Position numbers and translations under genes: made by a program. Below are positions 2,317 to 23,242 of a stretch of 29,803 bases of DNA, piece after piece. The DNA comes from Nitrospirota bacterium (GTDB lineage: Bacteria > NPL-UPA2 > JAADIA01), in contig JAADIA010000070.1 in the NCBI GenBank assembly GCA_013151555.1, positions 1-29,803 of the forward strand, given 5' to 3'. Under the pieces are notes generated by a model. The model was not told the origin of the DNA. It saw nothing but the letters and a program-made list of their open reading frames with translations, and made no database searches. Position 1 is the stretch's first letter, and each line of letters begins with the position of its first letter.

Positions 2317-4521
2317 TTACATTAGATATAACTCCAAGGAGCGGCATGTATACAGAACCAGTATCAAAATAAGTATAATGAGGGAGATGATTAAAACCAT
2401 TAGAGCCCGCTTCCTTGAAGGTAAGGGAGTGTAAGCAAACTTTTTTACAAATCCGGCTACTACATCTTTTTGCTCTTTCCGCGCCCCTTTCGGCAGATGG
2501 GGCACGTGGGTGAAGAGTCGTCCCAGGGTGGTATTGAGGCGCATGTTCACGTTTACCGCCCAACCCAGGGCTTCCAGGAGCACGCTCATATCTCTTTTGC
2601 GTATCTTGGCAAAACCTATGATTATCCCGGGTAAGAGAATAAGGGCTCCTATCCCCACTAATGCTCCCAGGATATGAACCGGTTTCACCTGGGAAAGGGC
2701 CTTGGTAATATAAGCAAAAGCGGAGCCAAGAGCAGCGATGGCTATTCCTCCTCCCAACAAAAGGTCGCGGCTGACGCCCGAGGCGCTTGGTCTGGAGGTG
2801 GTCGCTTCCAGCTTGGTCTGGCGGGATTTGGTGAACTTATCTACTTGTTTTCCGATTAAGCCCCCTATTCGCTGAAAGGGTGACTTCACTGATTCCCAGA
2901 GGCTGATGGGATTGACGACAATATCTATTACCTCTGCATCCCATTCCTGGCCGTCCAGAGTAAAGAAGACTCCGCGTTTCCCGATACGCAATCCCCCGGC
3001 ATCCCCGGAAGTTACAGCTGCCACAATCTCAAATTTAATGGTTTGACTTTGCTTACCATTAACCCTGAGCGTAGTCGAAGGGTCAATATCTTTGTCCCGG
3101 CGACCGGTGATTTGTAGATAGAGTAGATACATATAACTTTGCGCGGCTATCTTTTTATGAGCCTGGCGGTCGCGAACTTTCATGGTAAGAGTTATTTCTC
3201 TTCCCTCAATTACCAAGGTCCCCATTTCAATAAGGGCCCGCCGTTCGGGATTGTAAAGATTGGTAAAGCTGACAAAATTGTTTGCTAACTCCATCAACCA
3301 TCTCTGGTAGAGGATTAGCTTTTCCAGATTATGTATCTGGTCCAACTCGTCAGCCGCAGCCAGGTCTTTGGCAATCAGCTCGCTTATTTTCTCTCTGTAT
3401 GGTCCGCCAAGATAGGTCTGTAGTCTCTCTGCTCCCAGTTTTTCAACCTTAGCTCCCTGCTTACTTCCCAACCAGGTTCGATAGAGAACAAAGATACTTT
3501 TTACCTGCTCCCACTGTTTTTCCGTAAGCTGTTTGACGGGTTCTCCCAGAGCCCGTTTGAGGACTTTCTCTTTCAGTTCAACCAGGCGTTCAAGATATAA
3601 AGGGTTGAGCGTTGCTTCAAAGTCCAGAATACCTTTTGGGTCGGGGGCAGCTATGGGTGCGTCCTTAAGCCGGGCTTCCATTGCGGATTTATCCCGGAAA
3701 TCAATTTCTTCAAGCTCCTTCTGGCGAAGCTGCATTTGAGCCGCAGTGCGTTCATCGAATCTGACCATGGCACACTGGGCAAAATATTGCTCAATCTTCG
3801 TTTCTAAACTCACCACTAACTGATAAGCCGGCGGGGTTTCAGTTCCCCATGGCATAACCTCTGTGGTTTCCTCTCCGGGGGGAATTTCCCCTTTTGCTTT
3901 CCAAGCAAGGTAGTCTTCCGCTGCTTGAAAAAATTCTTTAACTTGCTTTTCACTAATCCCCGGCTTGCCGCAGGCATCCATAGTTGAGCCCACGGTCTCT
4001 ATTACGGCAACGATAAATTGAGCTAAATCAGAGTCGGCCGTTGCTGCCGGAGGGATAACTCCATCGCCGTTATTTGCTGCATTAGCCATAATACTTTTTA
4101 CATCCCGGACCTGAGCCAGACTAATCTCCTCGGCACCCAATACGTTAAGATTGGTTAACACGAGTTCGGCTGCGATTTGTAACTTTTGACCTTCGGGATG
4201 AGTGGTATCAATATCGCTGAATCTCAGAATATCACTGCCTTCGGAGAGACGGCTGCGATTGCCAAGAAATCGAAACAGCCAGGCTTGGGCTGCTTTTACT
4301 TCATCGCTCCTGATCCGACCGTTCTTGTCCCCGTCCAGATAAGAAGTAAATGCCGGATCGCAGTTAAGGCTGTCAGTGGAAATGCTGGTAGCTGCCCAGT
4401 GTACATCATCAAGAACCTGGATATTCTCCAAATCCCGGGCATCCTGGATTCTAAGCTGATAGCTGCCACCGTAATTTTTAAATACCAGGGATGAACCGGG
4501 TCGAGCCGTCAATTTAGGCAT
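2317..4521 (-). CDS. Large EF-hand membrane protein of unknown function
   Basis: I do not recognise a named family. The 734-residue product has a canonical EF-hand loop at residues 63-74 (DGDKNGRIRSDE, with ligands at positions 1, 3, 5 and 12). A degenerate second loop follows near residue 155 (NNGDGVIP). The middle, about 180-520, looks soluble and largely helical. The last quarter has three or four membrane segments: about 585-605, 612-635 and a very hydrophobic one just before the C-terminus. No signal peptide is seen. The start overlaps the 3' end of pyk by 13 bp, with GAGGGA about 8 bases upstream, so translation is probably coupled. A calcium-responsive membrane role is possible but only inferred from the EF-hand. 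Confidence 0.7.
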   Translation of the reverse strand: MPKLTARPGSSLVFKNYGGSYQLRIQDARDLENIQVLDDVHWAATSISTDSLNCDPAFTSYLDGDKNGRIRSDEVKAAQAWLFRFLGNRSRLSEGSDILRFSDIDTTHPEGQKLQIAAELVLTNLNVLGAEEISLAQVRDVKSIMANAANNGDGVIPPAATADSDLAQFIVAVIETVGSTMDACGKPGISEKQVKEFFQAAEDYLAWKAKGEIPPGEETTEVMPWGTETPPAYQLVVSLETKIEQYFAQCAMVRFDERTAAQMQLRQKELEEIDFRDKSAMEARLKDAPIAAPDPKGILDFEATLNPLYLERLVELKEKVLKRALGEPVKQLTEKQWEQVKSIFVLYRTWLGSKQGAKVEKLGAERLQTYLGGPYREKISELIAKDLAAADELDQIHNLEKLILYQRWLMELANNFVSFTNLYNPERRALIEMGTLVIEGREITLTMKVRDRQAHKKIAAQSYMYLLYLQITGRRDKDIDPSTTLRVNGKQSQTIKFEIVAAVTSGDAGGLRIGKRGVFFTLDGQEWDAEVIDIVVNPISLWESVKSPFQRIGGLIGKQVDKFTKSRQTKLEATTSRPSASGVSRDLLLGGGIAIAALGSAFAYITKALSQVKPVHILGALVGIGALILLPGIIIGFAKIRKRDMSVLLEALGWAVNVNMRLNTTLGRLFTHVPHLPKGARKEQKDVVAGFVKKFAYTPLPSRKRALMVLIISLIILILILVLYTCRSLELYLM

Positions 4522-5540
4522 GAAGAAGTTCCCTCTTTATGCGCTTCCGCATACTTTATAATTTTGTTCATCAAGTCTACTACTTTGTGAGGATGTTTTC
4601 CCACTGCGGTTTCCCCGGATAAAAGGACATAATCGGTCCCGTCAAAAATGGCGTTTGCGACATCGGAAACTTCTGCCCGGGTGGGCACTATTTCGGTGGT
4701 CATGCTATCCAGCATCTGGGTGGCCACGATTACCGGTTTGTGCATCTGGCGACATTTCTTGATAATTTCTTTCTGGATTACCGGCACCTGGTATATGGGA
4801 ACACAAATGCCTAAATCCCCCCGAGCGACCATAATTCCATCTGCCTGGCGGATAATGGCATCTATGTTGGTTAAAGCTTCCCGACTTTCCACCTTGGCAA
4901 AAATTTTACATTCCGGAAGCCGGGATTTTATGATGTTTCTAAGAGCAACAATATCCCTTGTCTTTCTTACAAACGACTGGGCAACATAGTCCAGTTTATT
5001 TTCTACGGCAAATTCTATATCATGTTTATCTTTAGCGGTTATAGTCTTAAAATCCAGTTTTATGTCCGGGATGTTTACTCCCTTTCTCTCTTTTAATATT
5101 CCGCCGATGACAACTTCCGCCTTCACATCTTTTTTTTCTACCTCTTTTACTTTTAGGATTATCTTGCCGTCATCGATATAGATGAGACAGCCTTTAGTAA
5201 ATTTCTTAAGAGAACCTTTATAATCAAAATGGACTCTCCCTTCGGAGCCTTCTATTTCCTCCTGGGTCAGGTAAAGGATTTGTCTTTTACTGAGGGGAAA
5301 CGGTTTTTTCAACCTCCCGAGACGAATCCGAAAACCTTCCAAGTCCTGCATTATTTTTATTGCTCTTCCCATCTTACGATTAAGCTTTCTTACCAGCTTA
5401 ACTCTCTTTAGATGTTCATCCCAATTACTGTGAGAAAAATTAAGTCTGACGACATCCAGCCCGGCGATAATCATTTTTCTCAAAACAGTTTCGCTATCGG
5501 TCGAAGGTCCTAAAGTGGCGATTATTTTTGTTTTTACCAT
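4509..5540 (-). CDS. pyk: Pyruvate kinase, short form without C-terminal domain
   Basis: Pyruvate kinase transfers phosphate from phosphoenolpyruvate to ADP in glycolysis. Visible active-site elements are NFSHS (34-38), the catalytic lysine in AKVES (Lys216), the metal-binding MVARGDLG (237-244) and ATQMLDSM (273-280), then SGETAVGK. The B-domain lies near 80-160. At 343 residues it is about 130 shorter than typical enzymes because the C-terminal (PK_C) domain is absent; the frame ends soon after the barrel. The usual GPxIR loop reads EGFRIR (69-73). A GAGGAAGGAA ribosome-binding site precedes the ATG, and a TATAAT box lies at 5564-5569. The next gene overlaps its stop codon. No allosteric control through PK_C is expected. 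Confidence 0.88.
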   Translation of the reverse strand: MVKTKIIATLGPSTDSETVLRKMIIAGLDVVRLNFSHSNWDEHLKRVKLVRKLNRKMGRAIKIMQDLEGFRIRLGRLKKPFPLSKRQILYLTQEEIEGSEGRVHFDYKGSLKKFTKGCLIYIDDGKIILKVKEVEKKDVKAEVVIGGILKERKGVNIPDIKLDFKTITAKDKHDIEFAVENKLDYVAQSFVRKTRDIVALRNIIKSRLPECKIFAKVESREALTNIDAIIRQADGIMVARGDLGICVPIYQVPVIQKEIIKKCRQMHKPVIVATQMLDSMTTEIVPTRAEVSDVANAIFDGTDYVLLSGETAVGKHPHKVVDLMNKIIKYAEAHKEGTSSCLN

Positions 5541-5563
5541 AGCTGTTTCCTTCCTCTTCTTTG

Positions 5564-5569
5564 ATTATA
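5564..5569 (-). promoter_or_regulatory. Possible -10 box for pyk
   Basis: A perfect TATAAT lies 24 bases before the pyk ATG on the minus strand. The -35 position (AAATGA) is poor. It also sits beside an AT-only inverted repeat (AAATAAA-TTCA-TTTATTT), so transcription could equally read through from the lipoprotein gene. Confidence 0.3.
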
Positions 5570-5599
5570 CCTGAGGGGAAATAAATTCATTTATTTAAT

Positions 5600-6550
5600 T
5601 TACTCCGACCCTTTTCGCAGCTTTTCCACCAGGACTTTCCCGGTCTTCATTTCCGGAAGCCAGAGGTTGCCGTTTTTCGTATCATAAAAGAAATCTGCCG
5701 GACCATTGACTTGTTGAGACAAATCGATAACTGCTAGTTTTTTCGTCTTCAAATTATAGGTACGGATAAGTCCGGTTTTGTCTGGAGCAACCCAATCGGA
5801 GAAAATAACTTTTGAGTTATCCAAAAGGGCTACTCCATCTAACCCTCCGATTGGACCTGTTAGCGCTTGATATTCATGTTTGTCATTGCGAAGAGAAATT
5901 ACTCCTAACTTTCCATTAAACTTATATCCCTCCCCGAAACTCACCACGAATAAGCGTTGTGTCCGGGAATCAAAATAGAGACCATTAGCTCCGGGAATGT
6001 TTTCTGCAAGAAGCGTAAAACGCGGTTTTTCTCCCAGGGATATTTCATAAACCTTCCCGGTGTCGGTTGCGGACACTACTAAAGTTTTCTTATCCACAAC
6101 CGCTAAATCGTTCAAAAACATCGTTCCTTGAGAAGAAAAATCAAGGTCAAAAGTCTGCTTACGGGTAATCAAATCAAATCCGACTACTCTATCAATATCC
6201 GCTACAAAAAGGACCTGGTTAATAATTGCCATTCCTTTGGGTGCATTCAAAACTCCTGTTTTCGGAAGATACTTTTTATCCAAAATGTCACCATTAGGGG
6301 CAAGCCGGGAAATAAACCCATCGCCATCCTTTACAGTGGGGGCAAGCTTCTTTCCCACGTTAGAAACAAATAAATACTTGCCGTTAGCCTCGGCAATTAC
6401 ACTCTCGGGGGAAGAAAAGCCCTCAATAACTTTTGGTGTGGTGATGTCGGATATTGATGTCTGGCATCCAGCCAAGAACAAGAAAGAAATAACACTTACT
6501 ATCGTGAACTTAAAAATAGCAATCCTTGCAGCTAATTTATCTTTAATCAC
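5600..6550 (-). CDS. Lipoprotein with SMP-30/NHL-like beta-propeller
   Basis: The 316-residue product begins with a basic and hydrophobic signal ending in a lipobox (FLFLAGC, Cys about 29), so it should be lipid-anchored to a membrane facing the periplasm. The mature part has repeated strands with patterns such as SPESVI, APKGMAI, NGLYFD, GLDGVAL and GPADFFYD. These recall SMP-30/gluconolactonase and NHL-type six-bladed propellers. Catalytic metal ligands of SMP-30 cannot be assigned, so a binding role is as likely as lactonase activity. The start is a GTG at 6550 behind AGGAGAGAGG. The gap to pyk is about 60 bp. Confidence 0.68.
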   Translation of the reverse strand: MIKDKLAARIAIFKFTIVSVISFLFLAGCQTSISDITTPKVIEGFSSPESVIAEANGKYLFVSNVGKKLAPTVKDGDGFISRLAPNGDILDKKYLPKTGVLNAPKGMAIINQVLFVADIDRVVGFDLITRKQTFDLDFSSQGTMFLNDLAVVDKKTLVVSATDTGKVYEISLGEKPRFTLLAENIPGANGLYFDSRTQRLFVVSFGEGYKFNGKLGVISLRNDKHEYQALTGPIGGLDGVALLDNSKVIFSDWVAPDKTGLIRTYNLKTKKLAVIDLSQQVNGPADFFYDTKNGNLWLPEMKTGKVLVEKLRKGSE

Positions 6551-6672
6551 AACCTCTCTCCTTTTTGAAAGATACCTTTAACCTAATTCACTTCCCTCAC
6601 CTGCCTCTTCTTTACGCAGGCTTACGCTACCTTCCTTTTTTTATTTCCGTAAATAAATGGGCTGGCCCTATT

Positions 6673-6694
6673 AAAAAAGTAGCCTGTCCCCTTT
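6673..6694 (-). repeat. AAAGGGGACAGGCTAC-T6 element
   Basis: On the minus strand AAAGGGGACAGGCTAC followed by six T abuts the stop codon of the radical SAM gene. From memory, similar GGGGACAGGCTACTTTTT strings recur in some uncultured-bacterial and deltaproteobacterial genomes near REP-associated transposases. Only one copy is present here and no transposase is nearby. Confidence 0.3.
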
Positions 6695-8261
6695 AATTTT
6701 TTAGATGTTTTTTTGCTTTTTTTAGTTTTTGGGGGAAGGTGCCTTTTTTAAATTGTGAGGTCCATCCTTTCATGATAATCCAGCCGCCAAAACGAACCAG
6801 GGCGTTACGCCAGGAACGGTACCATATCCTCCATCCTGATTTAATGTTATGCAAAAAGAAGACTAAAGCCGGGAATGAAAAGATATGCAGGCCTACCATA
6901 AATATATATTTAAACCGGTAAAATTTACCCATAATTTTTCTCATGGAAGCTTGCATCTCTTCTGCCGTTAGAGGTTCATCGGGATCGAAGAGAGGAAAAT
7001 TGCCGTCATAGTATTCCCAACCTATGTCCTCGGTTGAGTAAACCCTGTTTTGCTTTTCGAGTCTCTGTCTTAATTCTGTCCCGGGTAAGGGAACAGGTAA
7101 CAAGACTTGTACAGTATCAAGTTTGGCCTCCTTGATAAAATTCTTAAAACGTTTTATGCGTTCGTTTGCCGACATCTTAAAATTTATGCCGTCTTTTAAG
7201 GGATAGCCAAAGATAAACATCCCGTGCACCAAGAAACCGAATTTATGATACGCCCTTGCAAGAGAGATCATGTCTTCGGGCCGGACGTGTTTCCGCATAG
7301 CCTTTAGTTCTTCTTTAATGGGCGACTCAAAACCAATGGCTACGGAGTTAATACCTGCCTGGCGCATGGCAGAAAGCAATTCGGGATCCATAGCTTTATC
7401 CAGTCTTATTTGAACGGTTACATCCAATCTTCGGCCAATGCTTTCCTGGTAATCCCGGAGCATATTGCAGAATCGTATCGTTTCATCCCGTTGTTGTCCA
7501 AAAAGGTCATCGACGATAAAAAAATGTCTGGCATCATTGGTTTCCAGAAGGAAACTAATGTTTTCCAGCAGCCGTTCGGGAGAGGCGCTTCGGGGCTTAC
7601 CTTTAACGGTGCAAAACTCGCAGTCCATACCACAACCCCGGATCCTTCCTACCGGGTAAAGGGTAATCCTGGCATAACGCACTAAGGAGAAGTCCGGTGA
7701 GGGCAACTTGTCAAAATCCGTCAGGAGCTCTCTTTTGGGAGTACAAATAATCCGTCCATTATCTAAATAAGCAATGCCTTTTACCTGATTCACATCCCGT
7801 TTGCCTTCGAGAGCTTCAAGAAGCTCTTTAATGGTTTCTTCTCCCTCACCAATAACTAAATAGTCAATACCGGAATTCAAGGCTTCAGCTATATTATCTT
7901 CAATAAAATGCTGTCCCCCGGCAATAGTAATAATCCCCTTATCTTTATAGAAACGAGCAATTTCATAGAGTCTGGGGATGGTGCTTGTCAGACCGCCATA
8001 CAATCCAAGAACATCCACAGGCCTCTCTTGTTGCAAAAATTCATGGTCGGCTCCGAAAAAATCGCTTTTAGGACCATATCGGCAAAGATTGTTTTCATCA
8101 ATAACTTCAACATCCCATCCTTGCATCTCATTTACAGCGCTAGCTACACAAACCGGACCCAGGGCCGTCATTGTCTTAGCAATATGAGAATAAATATTAA
8201 AGGCCGGATAAGCGGGAACAACAATTCTCAATCTGTGTCTTTTTTGGGATGAATTAAACAT
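6693..8261 (-). CDS. B12-binding-domain radical SAM protein
   Basis: The 522-residue protein fits the class B cobalamin-binding radical SAM layout. An N-terminal Rossmann-like domain spans about residues 10-155 (IVVPAYPAF, then VLGLYGG and IAGGQHF, then YLVIGEGE). A radical SAM barrel carries the cluster motif CGMDCEFC (Cys210, 214 and 217; CxxxCxxC). A C-terminal extension includes a hydrophobic stretch near 450-475 and a basic tail. These enzymes methylate or rearrange unactivated carbons in natural products, lipids or cofactors; the substrate here is unknown. The ATG at 8261 follows AAAGGAGG by 5 bases and is preferred over the ATG at 8282. It starts 24 bp after the ldh stop codon and is probably co-transcribed. 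The membrane-prone tail suggests a lipid or envelope substrate, which is inference. Confidence 0.82.
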   Translation of the reverse strand: MFNSSQKRHRLRIVVPAYPAFNIYSHIAKTMTALGPVCVASAVNEMQGWDVEVIDENNLCRYGPKSDFFGADHEFLQQERPVDVLGLYGGLTSTIPRLYEIARFYKDKGIITIAGGQHFIEDNIAEALNSGIDYLVIGEGEETIKELLEALEGKRDVNQVKGIAYLDNGRIICTPKRELLTDFDKLPSPDFSLVRYARITLYPVGRIRGCGMDCEFCTVKGKPRSASPERLLENISFLLETNDARHFFIVDDLFGQQRDETIRFCNMLRDYQESIGRRLDVTVQIRLDKAMDPELLSAMRQAGINSVAIGFESPIKEELKAMRKHVRPEDMISLARAYHKFGFLVHGMFIFGYPLKDGINFKMSANERIKRFKNFIKEAKLDTVQVLLPVPLPGTELRQRLEKQNRVYSTEDIGWEYYDGNFPLFDPDEPLTAEEMQASMRKIMGKFYRFKYIFMVGLHIFSFPALVFFLHNIKSGWRIWYRSWRNALVRFGGWIIMKGWTSQFKKGTFPQKLKKAKKHLKN

Positions 8262-8285
8262 ATCAGCCTCCTTTCTCTTCATATT

Positions 8286-9242
8286 TTAAAGTTTTAGTTT
8301 CCTGATAATTTCTTTGAGAGTATTTGCCGAATTCTTAAACTGCTCCTGCTCCTGAGTTGACATTTTCAATCTTAAGAACCTATCCACGCCACTTTTATTC
8401 ACCACGGAAGGAATGCTTAAACAGATATCATTAATTCCATCGTAATCATTTATGAGGGTGGATACCGGAAGAATAGAATTCTCATCTCTGAGTATTGTCC
8501 CGACTATCTTAACCAGGGCCAGGCTAACAGCATAGTAAGTAGAACCTTTTGCCTCAATAATTTTGTAAGCAGCCTTCTTCACTTCTTCAAAAATGTTCGA
8601 GAGTTCTTCTTCCCGGTTACATTGGTTACATTTCTTACATCTTAAACAATACTTATCCAAAGTCATCCCGCCGATATTGGCGCTGCTCCAGAGAGGGAGT
8701 TCGGTATCTCCATGTTCACCGACAATATAAGCATGAACATTTCTGGGGTCTACCCCGCAGTGTTCACTGAGCAAATACCGGAACCTTGAGCTGTCCAGGA
8801 CGGTACCGGAACCGATGACTTTAGAGGGAGGAAAACCGGAAACTTTCAAAGTTACATAGGTCAAAATATCTACGGGGTTGGAAACAACCAAAAGAATAGA
8901 ATCCGGGGCATATTTTGTTATCTTCGGAATTATTTCTTTAAAGAGTTCCGCATTGGCTTCAACTAAGTCAATTCTCGTGTGTCCGGGTTTTTGATTAATC
9001 CCAGCGGTTATCACTACAACATCAGCATCTTTACACTTGTCAAAGCCAGAGGAATAAATCCTGGTAGGATGCGCAAAATTTAGGCCGTGGCTTAAATCCA
9101 TACACTCGCCTTCGGCTCTGTTTTTGTTCCGGTCAATGAGAACAATTTCTCTGGCTAATCCACTTATCATTAAAGAAAAAGCAAAAGTGCTTCCAACGTT
9201 CCCGGCCCCAATTACTGCAACCTTGGGACTTAAAGATTTCAT
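8286..9242 (-). CDS. ldh: L-lactate dehydrogenase
   Basis: The enzyme reduces pyruvate to lactate with NADH. The 318-residue product has the dinucleotide motif GAGNVG (12-17), an acidic residue after the second strand (LIDRN), Gln84 in NQKPG (the lactate- rather than malate-dehydrogenase residue) with Arg90, and the catalytic His177 in GEHGD. Length is typical. A CxxCxxCxxC cluster (Cys199, 202, 205 and 208) sits in the loop after IGGMTLDKY; I recall a similar Cys-rich loop in the Thermotoga enzyme. The ATG at 9242 sits behind GAGGTGGAG; the upstream frame to 9305 adds a low-complexity tail and is rejected. A strong promoter lies at 9402-9430. The radical SAM gene follows. Confidence 0.88.
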   Translation of the reverse strand: MKSLSPKVAVIGAGNVGSTFAFSLMISGLAREIVLIDRNKNRAEGECMDLSHGLNFAHPTRIYSSGFDKCKDADVVVITAGINQKPGHTRIDLVEANAELFKEIIPKITKYAPDSILLVVSNPVDILTYVTLKVSGFPPSKVIGSGTVLDSSRFRYLLSEHCGVDPRNVHAYIVGEHGDTELPLWSSANIGGMTLDKYCLRCKKCNQCNREEELSNIFEEVKKAAYKIIEAKGSTYYAVSLALVKIVGTILRDENSILPVSTLINDYDGINDICLSIPSVVNKSGVDRFLRLKMSTQEQEQFKNSANTLKEIIRKLKL

Positions 9243-9401
9243 CTTCTCCACCTCTTTCGTAATTTCGGGCTTCGAACCTGGAGTTCTGCTCCCGCTCCTC
9301 TTCATACCGCAAAAGGAAATTCAGGCATTATAAGCCATACCAAAGATGTATTGGTTCTTTCGATTGTATTGCGCGGGAAAGGGTTTTGTTAACCTATACA
9401 T

Positions 9402-9430
9402 ACTATATCGCTTGCCCGGTTTTCTGTCAA
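9402..9430 (-). promoter_or_regulatory. Strong sigma-70 promoter for ldh-radical SAM operon
   Basis: On the minus strand TTGACA (9425-9430), a 17-base spacer and TATAGT (9402-9407) give an almost perfect promoter. Transcription would start near 9395, leaving a leader of about 150 nt before the chosen ldh start. Confidence 0.75.
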
Positions 9431-9551: not shown

Positions 9552-10832
9552 TTACTCATGTCTCAGGGCTTCTATGGGATCCATGTTGGCAGCTTTACGG
9601 GCAGGATAAAGCCCGAAGATGATGCCTATAGCCGCAGAGATACTGAAGGCGAGGATAAGGGACCAGGGAGTGATAATCGTCTTCATTTTGGCAAAATGGC
9701 TTACCAGAAAAGGAATGGTTACTCCGAAAACAACTCCCAGCAGACCTCCTCCGGCGGAAAGGACCACTGTTTCCACAAGGAACTGGGTGACGATATCTTT
9801 TTTCTTGGCTCCCAGGGCTCGACGAATACCAATCTCCCGGGTGCGCTCGGTAACGCTGGCCAGCATGATGTTCATTATTCCGATGCCGCCTACCAGCAGA
9901 GAGATGGCCGCAATGGAACCAAGCACAACGTTAAATATCCGCTTTGTCTGCTCTGCCTGGCGAAGGAGTTCCAGAGGAATAATAAGCTTGAAGTCTTTCT
10001 TCTTGTGAAATCTCTCCAAGAGATTCTGAATAACTTTGGCCGTAGCGGGAACCAGCTCAGGGCTGGCTACTCTCACATTGATCTGGTGAAGTTGAATCCT
10101 TTCCATATTAAAACTTCCCGACTGGCGCCTGACGATAAGTTCGCCAAATCTTCTCCGGGCAGTGGTCAAAGGAATGTAAACATTGAAGTTGTATTCATCG
10201 ACAGTTATATTTGAACCTCCCCGGGCATTAGTCCCTCCCCGGTTTTGCATAATGCCCACAACTCGATAGTAATCACTGCCGATTTTAATCTCCTTACCCA
10301 GGGGGTCTTCATAGGCAAAGAGCTTCTTAGCAATTCCCGCTCCCAGGACGCAGACATTAGCGCTCTTATGCATATCGGTGAAGGTGAGAAACCGGCCCCG
10401 CGAAACACGAAAGTTGCTAATATCGGGATACCAGGGAACGGTTCCTATTACCTGACCTTCTGCAAGGCGATGACGATATCTCATATCCTGACGGATGTTT
10501 CGCATCGGGACTACTGCCTTCACACTGGGTATGGTGCTGGCTATTCTTTTTGCATCGTCATAAGTCAATCCATATTCCACAACAAAAGTGCGTCCGGTGC
10601 TGGCATTCTTATTATCGGGAGGTTTAACACTCTTAATAATGATGTTGCTGCTTCCTAAAATCCTGATCATCTTCTGAGCTTCCCAGCTGGCTCCCTCGCC
10701 AATGGAAAGCATGGCAATAACTGAGGAGACGCCGAAAATGATTCCCAGGACGGTCAAAGCCGACCGTAGTTTATGAAGAATCAGACTTTTGATGCCCAGT
10801 TTTATCATCCTGACAATACGAAAACTAACCAT
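9552..10832 (-). CDS. MacB-like ABC transporter permease (FtsX/MacB type)
   Basis: The permease of a mechanotransmission-type ABC exporter sits in the inner membrane and drives efflux or lipoprotein movement. The 426-residue product has the four-helix MacB layout: TM1 at about 18-42 (LTVLGIIFGVSSVIAM), a large periplasmic core domain (about 45-290), then three C-terminal membrane helices starting near 300. The conserved ERTREIGIRRALGA coupling region and a C-terminal PIEALRHE follow. No nucleotide-binding domain is fused; the ATPase is the gene just upstream, 15 bp away. It is the last gene of the sigma-led unit. The substrate could be an antibiotic, peptide, siderophore or lipoprotein; the sequence does not say. 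Confidence 0.88.
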   Translation of the reverse strand: MVSFRIVRMIKLGIKSLILHKLRSALTVLGIIFGVSSVIAMLSIGEGASWEAQKMIRILGSSNIIIKSVKPPDNKNASTGRTFVVEYGLTYDDAKRIASTIPSVKAVVPMRNIRQDMRYRHRLAEGQVIGTVPWYPDISNFRVSRGRFLTFTDMHKSANVCVLGAGIAKKLFAYEDPLGKEIKIGSDYYRVVGIMQNRGGTNARGGSNITVDEYNFNVYIPLTTARRRFGELIVRRQSGSFNMERIQLHQINVRVASPELVPATAKVIQNLLERFHKKKDFKLIIPLELLRQAEQTKRIFNVVLGSIAAISLLVGGIGIMNIMLASVTERTREIGIRRALGAKKKDIVTQFLVETVVLSAGGGLLGVVFGVTIPFLVSHFAKMKTIITPWSLILAFSISAAIGIIFGLYPARKAANMDPIEALRHE

Positions 10833-10847
10833 GGCGGTTCCTTAGCT

Positions 10848-11516
10848 CTATTCCTCTAGGTACCCATCCTTGAGCCTCACTATCCTCTTAGCTCTGGCGG
10901 CTACTTTGTCTTCGTGAGTAACCATAATAATGGTTTTACCCTGCCGGTTGAGCATATCCATGAGGTTCAAGATTTCTTTTCCCCTGGCCGAGTCCAGATT
11001 TCCCGTGGGTTCGTCTGCCAGAATAATAAGGGGATCGTTAGCCAATGCTCGGGCGATAGCCACCCGCTGCCGTTCCCCGCCGGATAATTCTCCCTGCCGA
11101 TGTTTAGCTCTCTGGCCCAGGCCCACCATCTCTACAAGCTCAAGACTACGCCGATGACACTCCTGAGGTGACCGTCCCTGGTAGAAAAGAGGCACTTCGA
11201 TATTCTCTATTACCGACAGTTGAGAAATAAGATTGTAGGATTGAAAAACGAACCCGATCCTTTCGCTTCTTATCTCGGAGAGGGCATCGTCGGAAAGGCG
11301 AGAGATGTCTATTCCACCCAAGAGATAGGTGCCTGCGCTGGGGCGGTCCAGACAACCCAATAAATTTAAAAGGGTAGATTTACCTGAACCGGAAGGACCC
11401 ATAATAGCGGCATAATCCCCTTCCTCGAAAGAAAGCGAGATATCCTTTAAAACCTCGACAGATGTCTCTCCCAGGAGGTAAGTCTTTTTTAGATTACGGA
11501 CTTCAGCAATGTTCAT
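10848..11516 (-). CDS. ABC transporter ATPase, LolD/MacB type
   Basis: This is the nucleotide-binding subunit that powers the adjacent permease. The 222-residue product carries Walker [10 protein letters not shown] (40-48), the Q-loop FQSYNL, the signature [10 protein letters not shown] (144-153), Walker B with ADEPTGNLD (167-175) and a switch His in VTHED. Length and LDRPSAGTY context fit the MacB/LolD family. The ATG at 11516 overlaps the TGA of the adaptor gene (ATGA), implying coupled translation. A longer open frame to 11594 merely re-reads the adaptor's end and is rejected. Confidence 0.93.
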
Positions 11517-13237
11517 CTTTGTTTTCCATCCGGTGTTCCTTGTTCCATGCGCCGTTTTATCTCCTGGCGTTGCTCCGGCGAAAGCTTCTTCCACTGCTCC
11601 AGGAGTTTTCCGGATATCTTCGGGGAAATCTTTTTCTCTGGAATCCGGGCAGAACCGGAGGCCGGGGGGACCTTTTTCTTTTCTTTCTTTTTGGGAGAGC
11701 TAACCTGCATATCCTGGTCAGAGGCAATAACGGGTGGGAGAAGAAGCACTTTTTCTCCTTCTTTTAAGCCCTTCTTAATCTCTACGAATTTGTCGTTAGA
11801 CATCCCTACCTCCACCGGCACCGCCTTTACTTCCCGGCCGTGGACGACATAGCAGACCTCTTTCCCTTCCCGCATGGAGACAGCCTGGATAGGCACGCTT
11901 AATACATCCTTGAGGCGGGCAACGATTATTTCTACCTTGGCGGACATGCCCGGTTTGAGGGAATCGACAACTTTATCAACGGTAATGTTCGTACTGTAAA
12001 CTTTTAGGTCCGGATTGAGCCAGCGCATCTGAGTATCGGGCAGAATAGCCACTTTACTTACGGTGCCTTTCAACCTCATATCGGGAAAAGCATCAACGGT
12101 AATGATAGCTTCCTGCCCTATTTTGACCTTATCAACAACAGTCTCATGCACTTTAACATCGACTTGCATGGCGGAGATGTCCGGCAGGGTTATGATGGGC
12201 TGTCGTTCCCGGATCATTGCTCCCGCTTCAATGAGATTTTGGTTGCCTCTCATGCCCCCGCCGCTGGAGGCATACACTACTAATCCCGATTGAGGAGCTT
12301 TGATAGTGGTTTTCTTTACCTGCCTACCAAGTTTTGCTAAGCGCTCCTTTTGTAACTCAAAGGTAGCCTTCTGGGCATTTACCTTTGCTTTAGCCTGGGC
12401 AATCCGGGATTTGGCCCGCTGGATAACCCGCTCCAACTCTTTCTTAGCCTCTGCATAATCGGACTGCTGTTCTCTCACTTGCTTAGGGTGAGTATACTTC
12501 TCCAGCAGCCTCAGCGTTTCCTGAGCCGCTTCCAGATCCAACTCCTGTTTCTTTAAGGCAAGTTTGTCAGCTTCTAACTCGCTCCGGGTCACATAACCTT
12601 TTTCCTGAAGTTTTTCCGTCCAGGCCAGTTTATCAGCGGCTCGTTTAGTTTCTTCCTCAGTAATAGTGATATTAGCTTCTGCTTTTCTCTTCTCTTGAGG
12701 CCAGTCTCCTTCCAGATACTTGTCCAGGTCCATTTTGGCAAACTCTAATTTAAGCTCTGCAGCCTTAATTTTGCTCTCGTTCTCATTTTTCTGAATCTCT
12801 AAGGCTTCCCTGGCCTCGGTATAGGAGGCCTGGGCATTCTGAAAGGTGATCTCCTGCTGAGCATAGCGCTCCCGCAGATTGGCCGAGTCCAGAACGACCA
12901 GAACGTCGCCCTTTTTTACAAAGGTTCCCTCCGGAACGATACTGATAATGGTAGCTTGTCCTTCTACTTCGGAAACGATATTTACCGATTTCTTAGCTTT
13001 CAGATTGCCACTCTCAATAACAGAAATGAGCAAATCTCCCCTGGTAACGGTGTAGGTCATACCCGCCTGGGGATTAGTCCCGGATCTGGGCAGTCGGACG
13101 ATGATAAAGGCAAGGGAAATGAGAATAATAAGGACAACAACAATCTTCTTGATTGTTTTTTGCCTCATTGTCTGCTTTATCCCGGGCTCTATTACTTCTC
13201 CAGCCTGGTTAGTGTTATCCTGGGCTTTATTCTCCAT
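11513..13237 (-). CDS. MacA/HlyD-like periplasmic adaptor protein
   Basis: Adaptors of this family bridge inner-membrane transporter and outer-membrane channel. The 574-residue product has a short cytoplasmic N-terminus, one membrane helix (about 31-48), a split lipoyl domain (IVSEVEGQATIIS near 86-98, then TIKAPQSGLVVY), a long alpha-helical coiled-coil hairpin in between (about 120-310), and beta-barrel and membrane-proximal domains (IITLPDISAMQVD to about 520). Length exceeds typical MacA (about 370-400) because the hairpin is long and a Lys/Pro-rich linker leads to a C-terminal helix with LSPEQRQEIKRRMEQG. The start overlaps the TolC-like gene by 11 bp and the end overlaps the ATPase gene. 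Confidence 0.88.
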   Translation of the reverse strand: MENKAQDNTNQAGEVIEPGIKQTMRQKTIKKIVVVLIILISLAFIIVRLPRSGTNPQAGMTYTVTRGDLLISVIESGNLKAKKSVNIVSEVEGQATIISIVPEGTFVKKGDVLVVLDSANLRERYAQQEITFQNAQASYTEAREALEIQKNENESKIKAAELKLEFAKMDLDKYLEGDWPQEKRKAEANITITEEETKRAADKLAWTEKLQEKGYVTRSELEADKLALKKQELDLEAAQETLRLLEKYTHPKQVREQQSDYAEAKKELERVIQRAKSRIAQAKAKVNAQKATFELQKERLAKLGRQVKKTTIKAPQSGLVVYASSGGGMRGNQNLIEAGAMIRERQPIITLPDISAMQVDVKVHETVVDKVKIGQEAIITVDAFPDMRLKGTVSKVAILPDTQMRWLNPDLKVYSTNITVDKVVDSLKPGMSAKVEIIVARLKDVLSVPIQAVSMREGKEVCYVVHGREVKAVPVEVGMSNDKFVEIKKGLKEGEKVLLLPPVIASDQDMQVSSPKKKEKKKVPPASGSARIPEKKISPKISGKLLEQWKKLSPEQRQEIKRRMEQGTPDGKQR

Positions 13238-14894
13238 TGTTCGTCTCCTCTTGCCATAATCCTTTTTCGTTAACTTGAAGGGTGCCGATATCCCGCCAGA
13301 ATTCCAGCCTGGCTATGGTATGGTCCACTAAGGCTCCGATCAAACCGTTTTGGGCCTCGAGAAACGCTTCCTGGGAGTCTAAAAGGTCTCTCGTATTCAC
13401 CCGGCCGGCCTGAAGAAGAAGGGTTGTGCTCTCTACCCGCTTTGCGGCCAGAGTGACACTCAATTTCTGAATATTATAGCTTTCCTCAGCTTGCAGCAGG
13501 CGGCGATATGCTTGTCTGACCTCAAGCTTTATATTATCTTCAAAGCTGAAGAGAGTCCGTTTCTGGCGGTCCAGGCTAATAAGAGATTTTCGGTAAGTGT
13601 TCCGTTCCTGCCGGCGATTCAGGGGAAGCCCGACATTAAGCTTGGTGCTATAGGTTCCTTTCTGGAAACGGAAATCGGTCATACTTGTCGGGGGAGCTGA
13701 ATTCACATCTGCAGATAAAGATAGGCTTACATCCGTTCTCAATCCATTTTTAGCCAGGAGTACCTGGCGCTCGGCATCTTCAACTTGGTCGCGGACGTTC
13801 ATTAAATCGAGCCGGTTCCGGAGGGCTGTCTTGACAGCCCCTTCAGTCTGAATTCCGAGAGAAGTGATGCCCTTCCGGACAAGACGGGTAAGCTCTGACT
13901 CATCAAGGATGATCTGAGCATCTGTAGGTAATCCCAGAGTTATCTTGAAACGGTCCAGAAGACGCTCGTCCTCCTCTTTGACCCGAATCCAACGATTCTT
14001 GGCCCTCAGTTCATTTTGCTTTGCTTGATCCACCTGAAATTCAGGAAGCCTTCCCGCTTGCGCCATCAATCGGGACCGTTTGCTTGATTCAATAAGGTTC
14101 TGATAATTATTGAATTCGTTTTTTACCACATCGTTTTGCTGAAGTACCCGGTAGTAATCAGTGGCAATCTGGACTGTAAAAGTTCTCTGGTATCTGGCAA
14201 ATGAGCGAACCTGGTAAAGGACATTTCTCTCTGCCTGGGTAAGGTTTTCCTGGGCTATCCGGCGCCCGGCACCCCGGGTGAGAGGTTGGATAATGCCCAG
14301 GGAGAGAAGAGAAGAAGCGCTCTTGCGAGGGTCGCCGGTAAAATAACGCAGGACGTCCAATCCCAAATCGACTCCTATCTCAGCCCCGCTTGCCAGGAGT
14401 TGTTTAAGACCAAAATCGGCCCCGCCCGTCCCGTAACGTTCGTTCCCCTGTTTAGTAACCCCGGCCGAAAGGCTGCCGTTAAATCTCGGGCCCCACTTAT
14501 ATTTCTGATAGGTCAGGTCCAGAGCCGCCAGGTAAAGGTCTTCTTTTTTACTTTGATATTCCCGGCTGTCCTTTACGGCAATCTCCAGGGAACGGGCCAG
14601 GGAGAGGATAGGAATTTTCCGTTTCCCCTTCTCTGTTTTTGGCTCCGGCTTGCCGAAAGGATTAATCTTCTTTTGCTCAATGGTGAAATTGCTATTATTG
14701 ATGTTAAGTGCTTCCTTCTGCTTCTGCCGGATTATCCGGTAAGTTTCCTTGTCCGCATCCTGCCGGTAATGAGCCGTGCTGCAACCTGAGGCGTAAAGGA
14801 CTAAGGCCAGGATAAAAAGGGAAGAAAAAGTTAACTTTATTTTTCTCCAACTTCCTTTATTTTCAGAAAAACGTGTCCTGTTACCGGCTCTCAT
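13227..14894 (-). CDS. TolC-family outer-membrane efflux lipoprotein
   Basis: Outer-membrane factors form the trimeric exit duct of tripartite pumps. The 555-residue product has a basic N-terminus, a hydrophobic signal and a lipobox (LYASGC, Cys about 38), as in acylated TolC relatives. The mature part has two long helical stretches around beta segments. The first repeat is near 90-300 (SLARSLEIAV and later ERNVLYQVRSF) and the second near 330-540 (GAVKTALRNRLDL and later AGRVNTRDLLDSQ), which is the OEP double repeat. The ATG at 14894 overlaps the stop of the Spy-like gene (ATGA) with GAGGATAA just before it. Confidence 0.87.
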   Translation of the reverse strand: MRAGNRTRFSENKGSWRKIKLTFSSLFILALVLYASGCSTAHYRQDADKETYRIIRQKQKEALNINNSNFTIEQKKINPFGKPEPKTEKGKRKIPILSLARSLEIAVKDSREYQSKKEDLYLAALDLTYQKYKWGPRFNGSLSAGVTKQGNERYGTGGADFGLKQLLASGAEIGVDLGLDVLRYFTGDPRKSASSLLSLGIIQPLTRGAGRRIAQENLTQAERNVLYQVRSFARYQRTFTVQIATDYYRVLQQNDVVKNEFNNYQNLIESSKRSRLMAQAGRLPEFQVDQAKQNELRAKNRWIRVKEEDERLLDRFKITLGLPTDAQIILDESELTRLVRKGITSLGIQTEGAVKTALRNRLDLMNVRDQVEDAERQVLLAKNGLRTDVSLSLSADVNSAPPTSMTDFRFQKGTYSTKLNVGLPLNRRQERNTYRKSLISLDRQKRTLFSFEDNIKLEVRQAYRRLLQAEESYNIQKLSVTLAAKRVESTTLLLQAGRVNTRDLLDSQEAFLEAQNGLIGALVDHTIARLEFWRDIGTLQVNEKGLWQEETNNGE

Positions 14895-15298
14895 TTTATC
14901 CTCTGTTTATACTTTTTTTCCCATTCCCGCATTTTCTTATCGGATTTCCGGCAAATCTTATCAAACTTTGCCTGTTGTTCCGGATTAAGGACGGCTCTGA
15001 TCTCTTCCCGGGAAGAAGATTTAATCTTTGCGAATTTGCTTATCATTTCGCTTCTAAATTGAGCAATCCGGGCCTTCTTCTCTTCCAGAATCTTGCTTAC
15101 TAACTCCTGCTGCCGAGAATCAAGATGAAGTTCGTCTGTAAAACGTTTTATAAGAGTTTCCGGAGCCGAGCTTCTCCCGTGGCGATAGACAGGTCTTCTT
15201 CTCTTCTGCTCCATCCTCCCGGCTAAGACCCCTATTCCCAGGCCCAGGACTAAAACAATGACCATAAGCACTACTATCTGCTTCTTGGTGTTTACCAT
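14891..15298 (-). CDS. Spy/CpxP-like periplasmic protein
   Basis: The 135-residue product has an N-terminal membrane anchor or signal (about 8-26, LMVIVLVLGLGIGVLAG) followed by a basic, all-helical domain. This carries the spaced motif LDSRQQELVSKIL and, later, LNPEQQAKFDKI, the LTxxQ-type pattern of Spy, CpxP and CnrX-like proteins. Such proteins are periplasmic chaperones or stress/metal sensors. Few His, Cys or Met residues are present, which argues against a CnrX-style metal site. It sits between an ECF sigma/anti-sigma pair and an exporter, so a sensing or feedback role is plausible. GGAGG lies before the ATG, just after a perfect palindrome. Confidence 0.75.
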   Translation of the reverse strand: MVNTKKQIVVLMVIVLVLGLGIGVLAGRMEQKRRRPVYRHGRSSAPETLIKRFTDELHLDSRQQELVSKILEEKKARIAQFRSEMISKFAKIKSSSREEIRAVLNPEQQAKFDKICRKSDKKMREWEKKYKQRIK

Positions 15299-15310
15299 TT
15301 TAATCCTCCC

Positions 15311-15330
15311 GGTATAATATTCATTATACC
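15311..15330. promoter_or_regulatory. Perfect 20-bp palindrome before the Spy-like gene
   Basis: GGTATAAT-ATTC-ATTATACC has 8-bp perfect arms. On the minus strand it embeds a TATAAT that could be a -10 box, with only a poor -35 upstream. It sits just before the GGAGG of the Spy-like gene and marks the only sizeable gap in the seven-gene unit. It could be an operator over an internal promoter or an RNA hairpin. Confidence 0.5.
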
Positions 15331-15377
15331 TGTTATCCTCTCTATAATATAATCAGATACCTATTAGATATTTAAAA

Positions 15378-15836
15378 CTACCAATCCGAAGGATGATAAG
15401 CCACCAGCCTGAGGACCGTATCATCAGTAATCTTCTCTCCGGAATTAACTATTCTTTCTTCCATGGACACGCCGTTTTCGGCAATTACCGAGCCAACCGT
15501 AACCGGTTGAGGTTCCTCGATGAAACTTTTTATCAGAAATACCCCGACCGTTAACACTAAGGCCGAAGTCACAAAAACCAATCTCCTTACCCAAATAAAA
15601 GTTATTAGTTCTTCCCGTTTCTCCCTCAGCCGGGAGGTTAACTCTTCCCAGAAGAGAGGTCCTCCTGTCTGAGAATCTTTACGGGAGAATAACTCCTGCT
15701 CTTTCTTAAAGTCGGAAAGTGCCTGCCGACACTCCGGGCAGCAAGAGAGATGATTGTTGACAAACGCTATCTTATCTTCACCCAGCTCGTTATCAACATA
15801 AGCGGAAAGCATTCTGCCGATCCGTCTGCATCTCAT
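15378..15836 (-). CDS. Zinc-finger anti-sigma factor (zf-HC2)
   Basis: Anti-sigma factors of the ZAS type hold an ECF sigma factor at the membrane until a signal arrives. The 152-residue product has the ZAS motif HLSCCPEC (His29, Cys33 and Cys36; HxxxCxxC) plus Cys3, one membrane helix (about 83-103) and a short periplasmic tail of about 50 residues. The second of two ATGs (15836) was chosen because GGAGG lies 7 bases before it but only 1-2 bases before the first. The open frame from the first ATG overlaps the sigma gene stop (ATGA). Such adjacency is the standard arrangement for a cognate pair. Confidence 0.88.
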   Translation of the reverse strand: MRCRRIGRMLSAYVDNELGEDKIAFVNNHLSCCPECRQALSDFKKEQELFSRKDSQTGGPLFWEELTSRLREKREELITFIWVRRLVFVTSALVLTVGVFLIKSFIEEPQPVTVGSVIAENGVSMEERIVNSGEKITDDTVLRLVAYHPSDW

Positions 15837-15838
15837 TA

Positions 15839-16408
15839 TCATTCCTCCTTTAAAACTCGTAATAGAGACCGTATTTTCTGTCTTGCTCGATATAAGCGAG
15901 ATTCTACCGTTCCCAGGGAACAGCCAAGAGCTTCGGCAATCTCATTATACGACAGTCCTTCTATTTCCCTTAAAGTTATAATTGTTCGATATTTTACCGA
16001 GAGACTATTCAAAGCCATCTGGATAAGCTCTTGTAATTCTTTAGCCTTAAGTTCTTGCCAGGCGGTTTTCGGAGCAGAAGCAAAGATACTCAGAAGAGAC
16101 TCTTTCTCTTTTCTCCCGAAATTCTCTATACTTACCAACTTCTCGCGTTTTTTCTTTCGGAAAAAGTCTTTTACCTGGTTTACGGCTATCCGGTAAAGCC
16201 AGGTATAGAAATTCGAGTTCTTCCGAAAAGAGGGAAGAGAACGATAGACTTTGATAAAAACATCCTGGGAGATATCCCAGGCATCAGTCCGATTGCCGGT
16301 TATGGAATAGATAGTATTATAAATCTTATCCTGATATTTTTTAACCAGCTTTTCAAAAGAAGTCTGGTCTCCTTCCAGAAAATCCTCAATAAGCTGATTA
16401 TCATCCAT
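15839..16408 (-). CDS. ECF-type RNA polymerase sigma factor
   Basis: ECF sigma factors direct RNA polymerase to stress promoters. The 189-residue product has region 2 (FEKLVKKYQDKIYNTIYSI, then DAWDISQDVFIKVYRSL and TWLYRIAVNQVKDFFR) and region 4 (LSVKYRTIITLREIEGLS, then YNEIAEALGC and GTVESRLYRAR). No extra domain is fused. The ATG at 16408 (MDDNQLIEDF) is preferred over one at 16492 because it gives the usual family length and because an ECF-type promoter lies at 16438-16466, inside the longer version. Its cognate anti-sigma gene follows directly. Its targets probably include its own operon. Confidence 0.9.
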   Translation of the reverse strand: MDDNQLIEDFLEGDQTSFEKLVKKYQDKIYNTIYSITGNRTDAWDISQDVFIKVYRSLPSFRKNSNFYTWLYRIAVNQVKDFFRKKKREKLVSIENFGRKEKESLLSIFASAPKTAWQELKAKELQELIQMALNSLSVKYRTIITLREIEGLSYNEIAEALGCSLGTVESRLYRARQKIRSLLRVLKEE

Positions 16409-16437
16409 GTGCCGCCCATCATCCCTACCCTTATCGT

Positions 16438-16466
16438 TTAGACGAAAGGGCCGGGCAAAATATTCC
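16438..16466 (-). promoter_or_regulatory. ECF-type promoter upstream of the sigma gene
   Basis: On the minus strand GGAAT (16462-16466), a 17-base spacer and CGTCTAA (16438-16444) match the classic ECF pattern GGAAC-N16/17-CGTCTA. Transcription would start about 20-25 bases before the chosen ATG. This suggests autoregulation, as is usual for ECF sigma operons. Confidence 0.6.
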
Positions 16467-20111: not shown

Positions 20112-21854
20112 ATGGGAGTGGTGGTTGTGAAGAAGGAAAGCGAGTCCTTCCCGGGTAAGATATTTGTCGAAAATAATATAGTAACCAGAGAAGAATTAGA
20201 TATAGGGATTCGTGAACAGCAGCGGAGAGATAGCCGGTATCTTGGTCTAACTCTGGTAAAGTTAGGGTTTGCTGCTGAAGAAGAAATCCTTCCGATATTA
20301 GCTGAACAGTTATCTGTCCCTTATGTCAAAGTAAAAGATAAAGATATTGACCCTTCCGTGATAGAGAAAGTCCCTGCCAAAGTTGTCTACCACTACAAGG
20401 TTATGCCTTTGGAAATGAAGAACGGAATTTTAACCATGGCCGTAACAGATCCTCTGGCAGTGCATGTATTGGATGATATAAGATTGTTGTTGGGCTGCGA
20501 GATAAAACCCGTTTTAGGAGGAGAGAAAGATATCCTGGAGGGACTGAATAAGTATTACGGAATAGGAGCAGAAACGGTAGAGGGGATGATAGATGAAACC
20601 GGCCTTGCTAAGGTTAAAGAGTCAAGTCTGTCTGAAACCGTTCCTGAAGATATAGAGGATTTAGCAGAAGATGCTTCCATAATCAGGTTTGTTAATCAGA
20701 TCTTACTTCAGGCCTTTCACGATAGGGCTACCGATATTCACATAGAACCGTTTGAAGATGAACTCCAGGTAAGATACCGTATTGATGGAGTGCTTTACGA
20801 AACGAGCATACCTCCTACCATTAAACATTTCCAAGCAGCTATTATCTCCAGGATAAAGATAATGGCCAAATTGGATATAGCGGAAAGGCGCTTACCTCAA
20901 GATGGCCGGATAAAGGTAAAAGTCGGAGAAGAAGAACTTGACTTGAGGGTTTCCATCCTCCCTACTCCTCACGGAGAAAGTGTAAATATACGCTTGCTCA
21001 GTAGTCGGTATATGCTCCTCGGTTTAAAGAATCTGGGTCTGTCGGATAAGGACATTACTATCCTGGAGTTGATGATTAAAAAACCTCACGGGATAATTCT
21101 GGTTACCGGTCCTACCGGCAGCGGAAAGACCACTACTTTGTATGCTTGTTTAAGTAAAATAAACAATAACGAGAAAAAAATAATCACTATAGAGGATCCT
21201 ATTGAATACCAGTTAAAAGGAATAACTCAGATTCAGATTTTGCCCAAGATAGATTTGACCTTCTCCCGGGGATTGCGTTCCATGTTAAGACATGACCCGG
21301 ATGTGATGATGGTAGGAGAAGTAAGAGATTATGAAACGGCAGAGATAACTATCCGGGTGGCCCTGACAGGACATTTGGTCTTCAGCACTCTTCATACCAA
21401 CGACGCTGCCGGGGCAGTAACCAGATTATTGGATATGAGTATTGAGCCTTACTTAATATCCTCATCTGTAGAGTGTATTATCGCTCAGAGATTGGTACGG
21501 CTTATCTGCCCGGACTGCAAGCATGAAGTTAAACAAAAGAAGGAACTTATCGAGGAGATGGGGTTCACCAAGGAGATCTTGGAAACGGAGGCAATCATCT
21601 TTGAAGGCAAAGGATGTGAAAAGTGTAAATTTACCGGTTATCGGGGCAGAACCGGCATCTACGAATTTTTAGTGATGAACGATGAGATAAGACAATTAGT
21701 TCTGGAACGAACTCCGGCAAATATAATAAAGGAGAAGGCAATCTCCCTGGGAATGAGAACCTTGCGCCAGGACGGATGGGAAAAAGTGCGTAAAGGGTTG
21801 ACTACCGCCAGTGAGGTTGTAAGGGTAACTCAACAGGAGGATATAATGGAGTAA
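20112..21854 (+). CDS. gspE: Type II secretion ATPase GspE
   Basis: This cytoplasmic hexameric ATPase powers pseudopilus assembly. The 580-residue product has an MshEN/GspE N-terminal domain (about 10-150), Walker A GPTGSGKTT (about 332-340), the EDPIEY Asp box, Walker B region HDPDVMMVGEVRD, His box LVFSTLHTND, and a zinc-binding tetracysteine (CPDC about 466-469, CEKC about 503-506) typical of GspE and PilB. No Shine-Dalgarno precedes the ATG at 20112. A GTG at 20127 has GGGAG 8 bases upstream and is a serious alternative start. GspF begins immediately after its stop. PilB cannot be excluded by sequence alone, but the pseudopilin genes downstream are Gsp-type. Confidence 0.93.
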   Translation: MGVVVVKKESESFPGKIFVENNIVTREELDIGIREQQRRDSRYLGLTLVKLGFAAEEEILPILAEQLSVPYVKVKDKDIDPSVIEKVPAKVVYHYKVMPLEMKNGILTMAVTDPLAVHVLDDIRLLLGCEIKPVLGGEKDILEGLNKYYGIGAETVEGMIDETGLAKVKESSLSETVPEDIEDLAEDASIIRFVNQILLQAFHDRATDIHIEPFEDELQVRYRIDGVLYETSIPPTIKHFQAAIISRIKIMAKLDIAERRLPQDGRIKVKVGEEELDLRVSILPTPHGESVNIRLLSSRYMLLGLKNLGLSDKDITILELMIKKPHGIILVTGPTGSGKTTTLYACLSKINNNEKKIITIEDPIEYQLKGITQIQILPKIDLTFSRGLRSMLRHDPDVMMVGEVRDYETAEITIRVALTGHLVFSTLHTNDAAGAVTRLLDMSIEPYLISSSVECIIAQRLVRLICPDCKHEVKQKKELIEEMGFTKEILETEAIIFEGKGCEKCKFTGYRGRTGIYEFLVMNDEIRQLVLERTPANIIKEKAISLGMRTLRQDGWEKVRKGLTTASEVVRVTQQEDIME

Positions 21855-23081: not shown

Positions 23082-23129
23082 AAAATAAAATTTTTATAAC
23101 CATAGGTAAACACCGTCTATTTATTTTTT

Positions 23130-23159
23130 ACTGCAGAGTTCCCAGAGCAGGCAGAGAAT
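23130..23159. repeat. Degenerate half copy of the CGCAGAG repeat
   Basis: ACTGCAGAGTTCCCAGAGCA followed by GGCAGAGAAT resembles the left arm of the palindrome at 18123-18170. The second arm is missing. It lies in the 160-bp gap between gspF and gspG. Confidence 0.4.
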
Positions 23160-23242
23160 ATTTAATTTTAAATACGATTTTCTTTTCTCTGTAAGCTCGG
23201 CAGTAATATGGTTTATATGTTAAGAAAAGGAGGGTCCCGGCA

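Follow-up and report, generated by a model that had tools for sequence, protein, structure and literature searches.

The window, by which we mean the whole 29,803-nucleotide stretch of DNA that was analyzed, contains seven genes that all lie on the minus strand and together span positions 9552-16408. Domain profiles assigned each of them and placed them in the order that a preliminary description of this DNA had claimed. The first gene (15839-16408) encodes an RpoE/AlgU-like ECF sigma factor of 189 aa containing the Pfam domains Sigma70_r2 and r4_2, and it is followed by the gene for an anti-sigma factor with a zinc motif, one transmembrane (TM) helix, and a short periplasmic tail (15378-15842; zf-HC2, 5.7e-9). 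The third gene (14891-15298) encodes a presumably membrane-anchored Spy/CpxP-like protein of 135 aa, which has a GxxxG motif in its TM segment as well as LxLxxxQ and LNPEQ motifs. The remaining genes encode a TolC-family outer membrane factor (OMF) that is a probable lipoprotein (13227-14894; OEP, PF02321, 3e-26), a 574-aa MacA/HlyD-type periplasmic adaptor with an N-terminal TM segment, assigned by profile matches (11513-13237), a MacB/LolD-type ABC ATPase of 222 aa (10848-11516; ABC_tran, 7e-32), and a MacB-type permease (MacB_PCD plus FtsX; MacB_PCD at 1e-43) whose ATPase is encoded on a separate gene (9552-10832). From the sigma factor to the permease, the junctions measure -4 (ATGA), +79, -4 (ATGA), -11, -4 (ATGA), and +15 bp. 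Five of the six are tight, being ATGA overlaps, an 11-bp overlap, or a 15-bp gap, which agrees with the close packing described earlier, whereas the 79 bp between the anti-sigma and Spy-like genes (15299-15377) form the sole long junction, an exception that had not been singled out. Upstream of the unit is lipA, whose reading frame ends at 16496. Downstream is a lactate/malate dehydrogenase gene that starts at 9305, with a predicted sigma-70-type promoter on the minus strand (TTGACA-N17-TATAGT, 9402-9430; 11/12 consensus match) that is likely to be the start of the next transcript, although the region contains nearly the same number of sigma-70-type sites as its shuffled versions. Based upon these neighbors, the unit probably ends at 9552 and is plausibly bounded there and at about 16466, where the preliminary description had also ended it and which is the first base of a predicted ECF promoter. 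Elsewhere in the window, the plus strand carries a type II secretion/type IV pilus-like cluster (20112-28410) with GspE-, GspF-, GspK-, and PilM-like proteins recognizable by eye.

Among the NCBIfam models, the sigma protein best matches RpoE (2.1e-46), under the RpoE equivalog cut-off, and its nearest solved structures are sigma factors of the AlgU/RpoE type, with CnrH being more distant. The anti-sigma protein, for which the second ATG at 15836 may be the start codon, contains the sequence HLSCCPEC. Class I zinc-motif anti-sigma factors are defined by an Hx3Cx2C motif in a protein encoded beside an ECF sigma gene (PMC7406223), and the window protein has both the motif and the location. The window's own genome also contains three more ECF sigma/anti-sigma pairs (L055, L056, and L057) that have neither a Spy-like gene nor a pump.

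The pump genes supply each of the components of a MacAB-TolC system, namely a MacB core with its FtsX TM domain, an ABC ATPase, a MacA-type adaptor, and a TolC-family OMF. The nearest solved structures are MacA for the adaptor (9e-20) and MacB for the permease (1e-51). As read from the sequence, the ATPase motifs are intact (Walker A, the signature LSGGE, the Walker B motif ILADE, and VTHE) and the OMF has an ASGC lipobox-like start. The ATPase scores almost equally against LolD and MacB, as it might if the ABC part were a LolCDE-like transporter of lipoproteins or lipids instead of an exporter of toxic compounds. That assignment is highly improbable, since the permease scores 208 bits against MacB vs 50 bits against LolCE and is encoded alongside its own adaptor and OMF. 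The closest relative of the window OMF and adaptor was found in an OMF-adaptor-ATPase-permease operon lacking a sigma pair (L039, genome G032, 4007-9163), and therefore this type of pump also occurs apart from the switch. The C-terminal tail of the window adaptor (11513-11600) ends in a Spy-motif-like stretch, LSPEQRQEIKRRMEQG, and the adaptor tail at another locus (L040) contains SSEQFRERM.

The Spy-like protein scores 25.3 bits against Metal_resist and 21.0 bits against LTXXQ, both slightly below the Pfam cut-offs (24.3 bits for LTXXQ). Family members L040 and L094 exceed the LTXXQ cut-off, and 11/20 members match LTXXQ at E<0.01. A Pfam Metal_resist search of the window's own genome missed this sub-threshold gene and we used family alignments instead. 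By profile, the nearest solved structure is E. coli Spy (1e-5), with NccX at 0.01. Helices are predicted from the single sequence at residues 45-57, 61-93, 97-103, and 106-134. A single-sequence model compared by VIA gave weak matches, with CpxP ranked first (Z 4.4, rmsd 11 A) ahead of Spy (3.8). Foldseek with the single-sequence model returned no significant match, and a plasmid search with the protein returned no match. Among 40 family members, the two glycines of the TM GxxxG motif are nearly invariant (G19 in 38/40 and G23 in 39/40), and L57, L59, Q63, L104, and Q108 are also conserved. The length of the N-terminal helix and its conserved glycines suggest that it is an uncleaved anchor. 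CnrX, the sensor of a nickel/cobalt switch, has glycines at both of the corresponding TM positions and LKPEH at the LTPEQ site. Because a direct profile comparison with CnrX was weak (probability 24.5%) and the fold comparison had no clear outcome, the proposed relatedness of the two proteins is drawn from their motif positions and gene context.

Alternatively, the locus could be a true cnr/ncc system for nickel, cobalt, copper, or zinc that happens to use an ABC exporter as its pump. Its design is that of cnrYXHCBA, and the sub-threshold Metal_resist match and weak NccX match point the same way. However, the CnrX ligands H42, H46, E63, and M123 align with I50, T54, K75, and I100 in the window protein and are unconserved among the 40 family members, while CnrX H119 falls in an alignment gap and lies opposite S96 when placed by hand. 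In total, the window protein contains only two histidines and one cysteine. Furthermore, MacAB-type pumps are not known to handle metal ions. We thus regard a metal efflux switch as very improbable and a nickel/cobalt signal as unlikely.

With the Spy-like profile, 386 genomes from across the bacteria were scanned and 49 Spy-like loci were inspected, 39 of which are preceded directly, on the same strand, by an ECF sigma gene. Among these 39 triads, 11 run on in the same direction into MacA/MacB-type genes, in most cases together with an OMF gene, three continue into an RND pump (L102, L107, and L122), and 25 have no recognized pump within ~9 kb, with a few of the latter being cut by contig ends. 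Since 25/39 triads lack a recognizable pump, the pump is a common yet optional output, or cargo, of a conserved switch. When relatives were searched for the same gene order, as had been suggested for this locus, a distant genome yielded an identical seven-gene order (L111, G232) and another yielded all seven functions with the ATPase and adaptor swapped (L041, G069). The ATPase and permease are fused at L094, L098, L117, and L123. Contig ends truncate L096 and L103, and only the adaptor and permease are present at L040. Eight sampled families have the ABC version, or nine counting G386, whose sigma gene would fall past the contig end. The sigma factor closest to that of the window (50% identity) is found in G215. 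In the phylum of that genome, the Spy-like gene is present in 6/6 genomes and all five of the loci read carry pump genes as far as the contigs reach. None of the eight genomes sampled from the phylum of the window itself has a close copy, and thus the unit was gained or lost in that phylum. One further locus (L119, G263) carries two sigma/Spy-like triads in tandem beside an RND pump.

Two sets of control loci were compared with the triads. The first comprised 80 moderately similar RpoE-type sigma loci, mostly from Pseudomonadota and Verrucomicrobiota, and among the matches listed none had Spy-like, OMF, MacA, MacB, or RND genes. The second set was matched, being made up of 40 further ECF sigma loci drawn from the genomes that carry the triads, and likewise included no OMF, MacA, MacB, or RND genes (0/40) and had one marginal Spy-like match, with four of the stretches shortened by contig ends. 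A pump of any kind at 14/39 triads compares with 0/80 (Fisher p 2.6e-8) and 0/40 (1.2e-5) control loci, and both p values are optimistic, as the loci share ancestry. The association of the sigma pair with the pump therefore exceeds chance. The statement in the preliminary description that the combination is unusual did not hold, since the triad occurs widely, roughly one in three of those sampled has a pump, and cnrYXHCBA is a characterized precedent. A limited literature search turned up no paper in which an ECF switch is linked to both a MacAB pump and a Spy-like gene; an earlier description is possible.

Motif comparison identified a predicted ECF promoter, GGAATATTTTGCCCGGCCCTTTCGTCTAA, on the minus strand at 16438-16466, with a -35 GGAAT, 18 nt, and a -10 GTCTAA, and it sits 29 bp ahead of the sigma ATG. 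A looser form, GGAA[TC]-N17/18-GTC[ACT][AG], was found in 9/40 regions upstream of triad sigma genes, including that of the window, against an expectation of 0.4 (from shuffles) to 0.6 (from locus density) for 40 regions, a somewhat favorable figure given that the motif was picked after viewing these regions. The two loci closest by sigma sequence (L227 and L228) have GTAAC-N18-GTCTAA, with TTTCGTCTAAA as in the window. At L092, one copy of the motif precedes the sigma gene and another precedes a divergent OMF-MacA-ATPase operon, a layout that speaks for the pump being a target of the sigma factor. A genome-wide count of the exact GGAAY-N17/18-GTCTAA gave four matches vs six for a backwards control, and this lack of excess fits a local regulon. 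A short inverted repeat (CCCTT...AAGGG) surrounds the -10 box at 16425-16450, and L227 and L228 have a different one at the corresponding position (CCTCT...AGAGG). A second copy of the promoter motif lies directly 3' of the Spy-like gene in L091 (at 8698) and L106 (at 5739), where the sigma factor may drive a further downstream transcript.

The 79-bp gap ahead of the Spy-like gene could separate two transcripts. In that case, the sigma pair might run a distant regulon, while transcription of the Spy-like and pump genes would start independently, from a second promoter or operator within the gap. This is the sole long junction of the unit, and it contains a perfect palindrome, GGTATAAT-GAAT-ATTATACC (15311-15330), that occurs only once in the whole genome and is possibly an operator or an mRNA hairpin beside the ribosome-binding site. 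However, no sigma-70-like site was found on the minus strand of the gap, the relatives with the most similar sigma sequences have no such gap and their triad continues into the pump, and the controls described above show linkage between triad and pump. Two independent units are consequently improbable, and we infer that all seven genes are transcribed together. As for RNA structure, the intergenic sequence ahead of the Spy-like gene was no more stable than shuffles (z -0.77).

The reading we favor, at a probability of about two in three, is that the seven genes make up a CNR-like switch across the membrane, which controls a MacAB-type tripartite ABC exporter of its own and has the Spy-like protein as a co-sensor. 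At rest, the membrane anti-sigma factor would hold the RpoE-type sigma factor, and the GxxxG-anchored Spy-like protein would join the membrane complex and provide the surface for periplasmic sensing that is missing from the short-tailed anti-sigma factor. Periplasmic or envelope stress would then engage the Spy-like domain and free the sigma factor, presumably following the CnrX/CnrY pattern, in which CnrX keeps CnrY and CnrH at the membrane until periplasmic metal binding frees CnrH (PMC7689651). The freed sigma factor would transcribe the unit from GGAAT-N18-GTCTAA (16438-16466), yielding more of the switch proteins together with the OMF, MacA-type adaptor, and MacB-type ATPase/permease, and the offending compound would be removed from the periplasm. 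Pumps of the MacB family draw substrate out of the periplasm by mechanotransmission (PMC8277102), and therefore the compartments that are sensed and emptied would coincide. Our guess is that the substrate or inducer is an amphiphilic or peptide-like envelope-active compound. The sense-and-expel interpretation offered in the preliminary description has thus, apart from its supposed rarity, gained from the conserved linkage, its absence from control sigma loci, the sigma-type promoter, and the motif at L092, and as judged from sequence a self-contained unit of this kind is plausible.

The assignment of sensing to the Spy-like partner stems from the anti-sigma factors. A candidate with a single TM segment lies beside the sigma gene at 33/39 triad loci, with a median tail of ~40 aa, and such short tails would leave little space for a sensor domain. 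The zinc motif is present in 13 of these 33 candidates, and a GxxxG motif complementary to that of the Spy-like TM was found in only two of the 33 anti-sigma TM segments. Conversely, the Spy-like protein might be no more than a chaperone induced by the sigma factor, acting as an effector as E. coli Spy does, with the anti-sigma factor sensing stress itself through stepwise proteolysis as RseA and RsiW do. The profile match to E. coli Spy (1e-5) would suit such a role, as would the resemblance of a zinc-motif single-pass anti-sigma factor to RsiW-type factors (PMC4598750). Nevertheless, Spy and CpxP are soluble, whereas the window family keeps a TM-like helix with a near-invariant GxxxG common to CnrX; its gene accompanies the sigma pair and not the cargo, even at pump-free loci; and the anti-sigma tails are short. 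We therefore consider a chaperone role alone unlikely, albeit one to be taken seriously, and retain the Spy-like protein as the presumed sensor. More tentatively, and at somewhat less than even odds, GxxxG-anchored Spy-like proteins may constitute a broad, undescribed class of co-anti-sigma sensors, in which a metal-free chaperone-type fold reads envelope damage or clients and relays this through the membrane to short-tailed anti-sigma factors, ABC and RND exporters are interchangeable outputs, and CnrX is one specialized metal-sensing branch. The comparison places the cnr nickel/cobalt switch in a wider, multi-lineage pattern of a sigma/anti-sigma/Spy-like triad able to run ABC or RND exporters. 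In the Spy-like member, the membrane signature and a putative hairpin signature are retained, whereas the metal site is not.

Several known systems share parts of this design. With MacAB-TolC, an exporter of macrolides, enterotoxin, and peptides, the window unit has in common a MacA-type adaptor, a MacB-type permease core, and a TolC-family duct. Unlike that system, it encodes the ATPase and permease on separate genes instead of the N-terminal ATPase-permease fusion of E. coli MacB, has its own OMF and a longer adaptor (574 aa) within the operon, and is proposed to be under its own ECF switch. The Spy-like protein resembles E. coli Spy, CpxP, and ZraP in its two LTxxQ-type motifs, with Spy being its best solved-structure profile match, but those proteins belong to two-component systems, whereas the window protein appears to be anchored by a GxxxG helix and is tied to an ECF sigma pair. 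An Azospirillum operon encoding RpoE8, a hypothetical protein, and a "periplasmic heavy metal sensor" is reported to be upregulated upon RpoE6 overexpression (PMC12826043), and going by its description, in which no pump is included, it seems to be a triad of this type. The nearest known design is that of cnrYXHCBA/nccYXHCBA from Cupriavidus metallidurans pMOL28 and related sources, a characterized nickel/cobalt system with an RND pump. Both encode a membrane anti-sigma factor, a CpxP/Spy-type protein that is membrane-anchored (presumably so in the window), and an ECF sigma factor together, both place these switch genes directly ahead of an outer membrane factor, an adaptor, and an inner-membrane pump, and the TM GxxxG along with the LxL and LxPE(Q/H) positions are common to CnrX and the window Spy-like protein. 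The window unit differs in its ABC/MacB-type rather than RND pump, its sigma-anti-Spy rather than anti-sensor-sigma gene order, its zinc-motif anti-sigma factor in place of the class II CnrY, its RpoE-type sigma factor, and a Spy-like protein that does not have the CnrX metal ligands. It is thus a cnr-type variant whose pump is of the ABC class and which lacks the known metal site.
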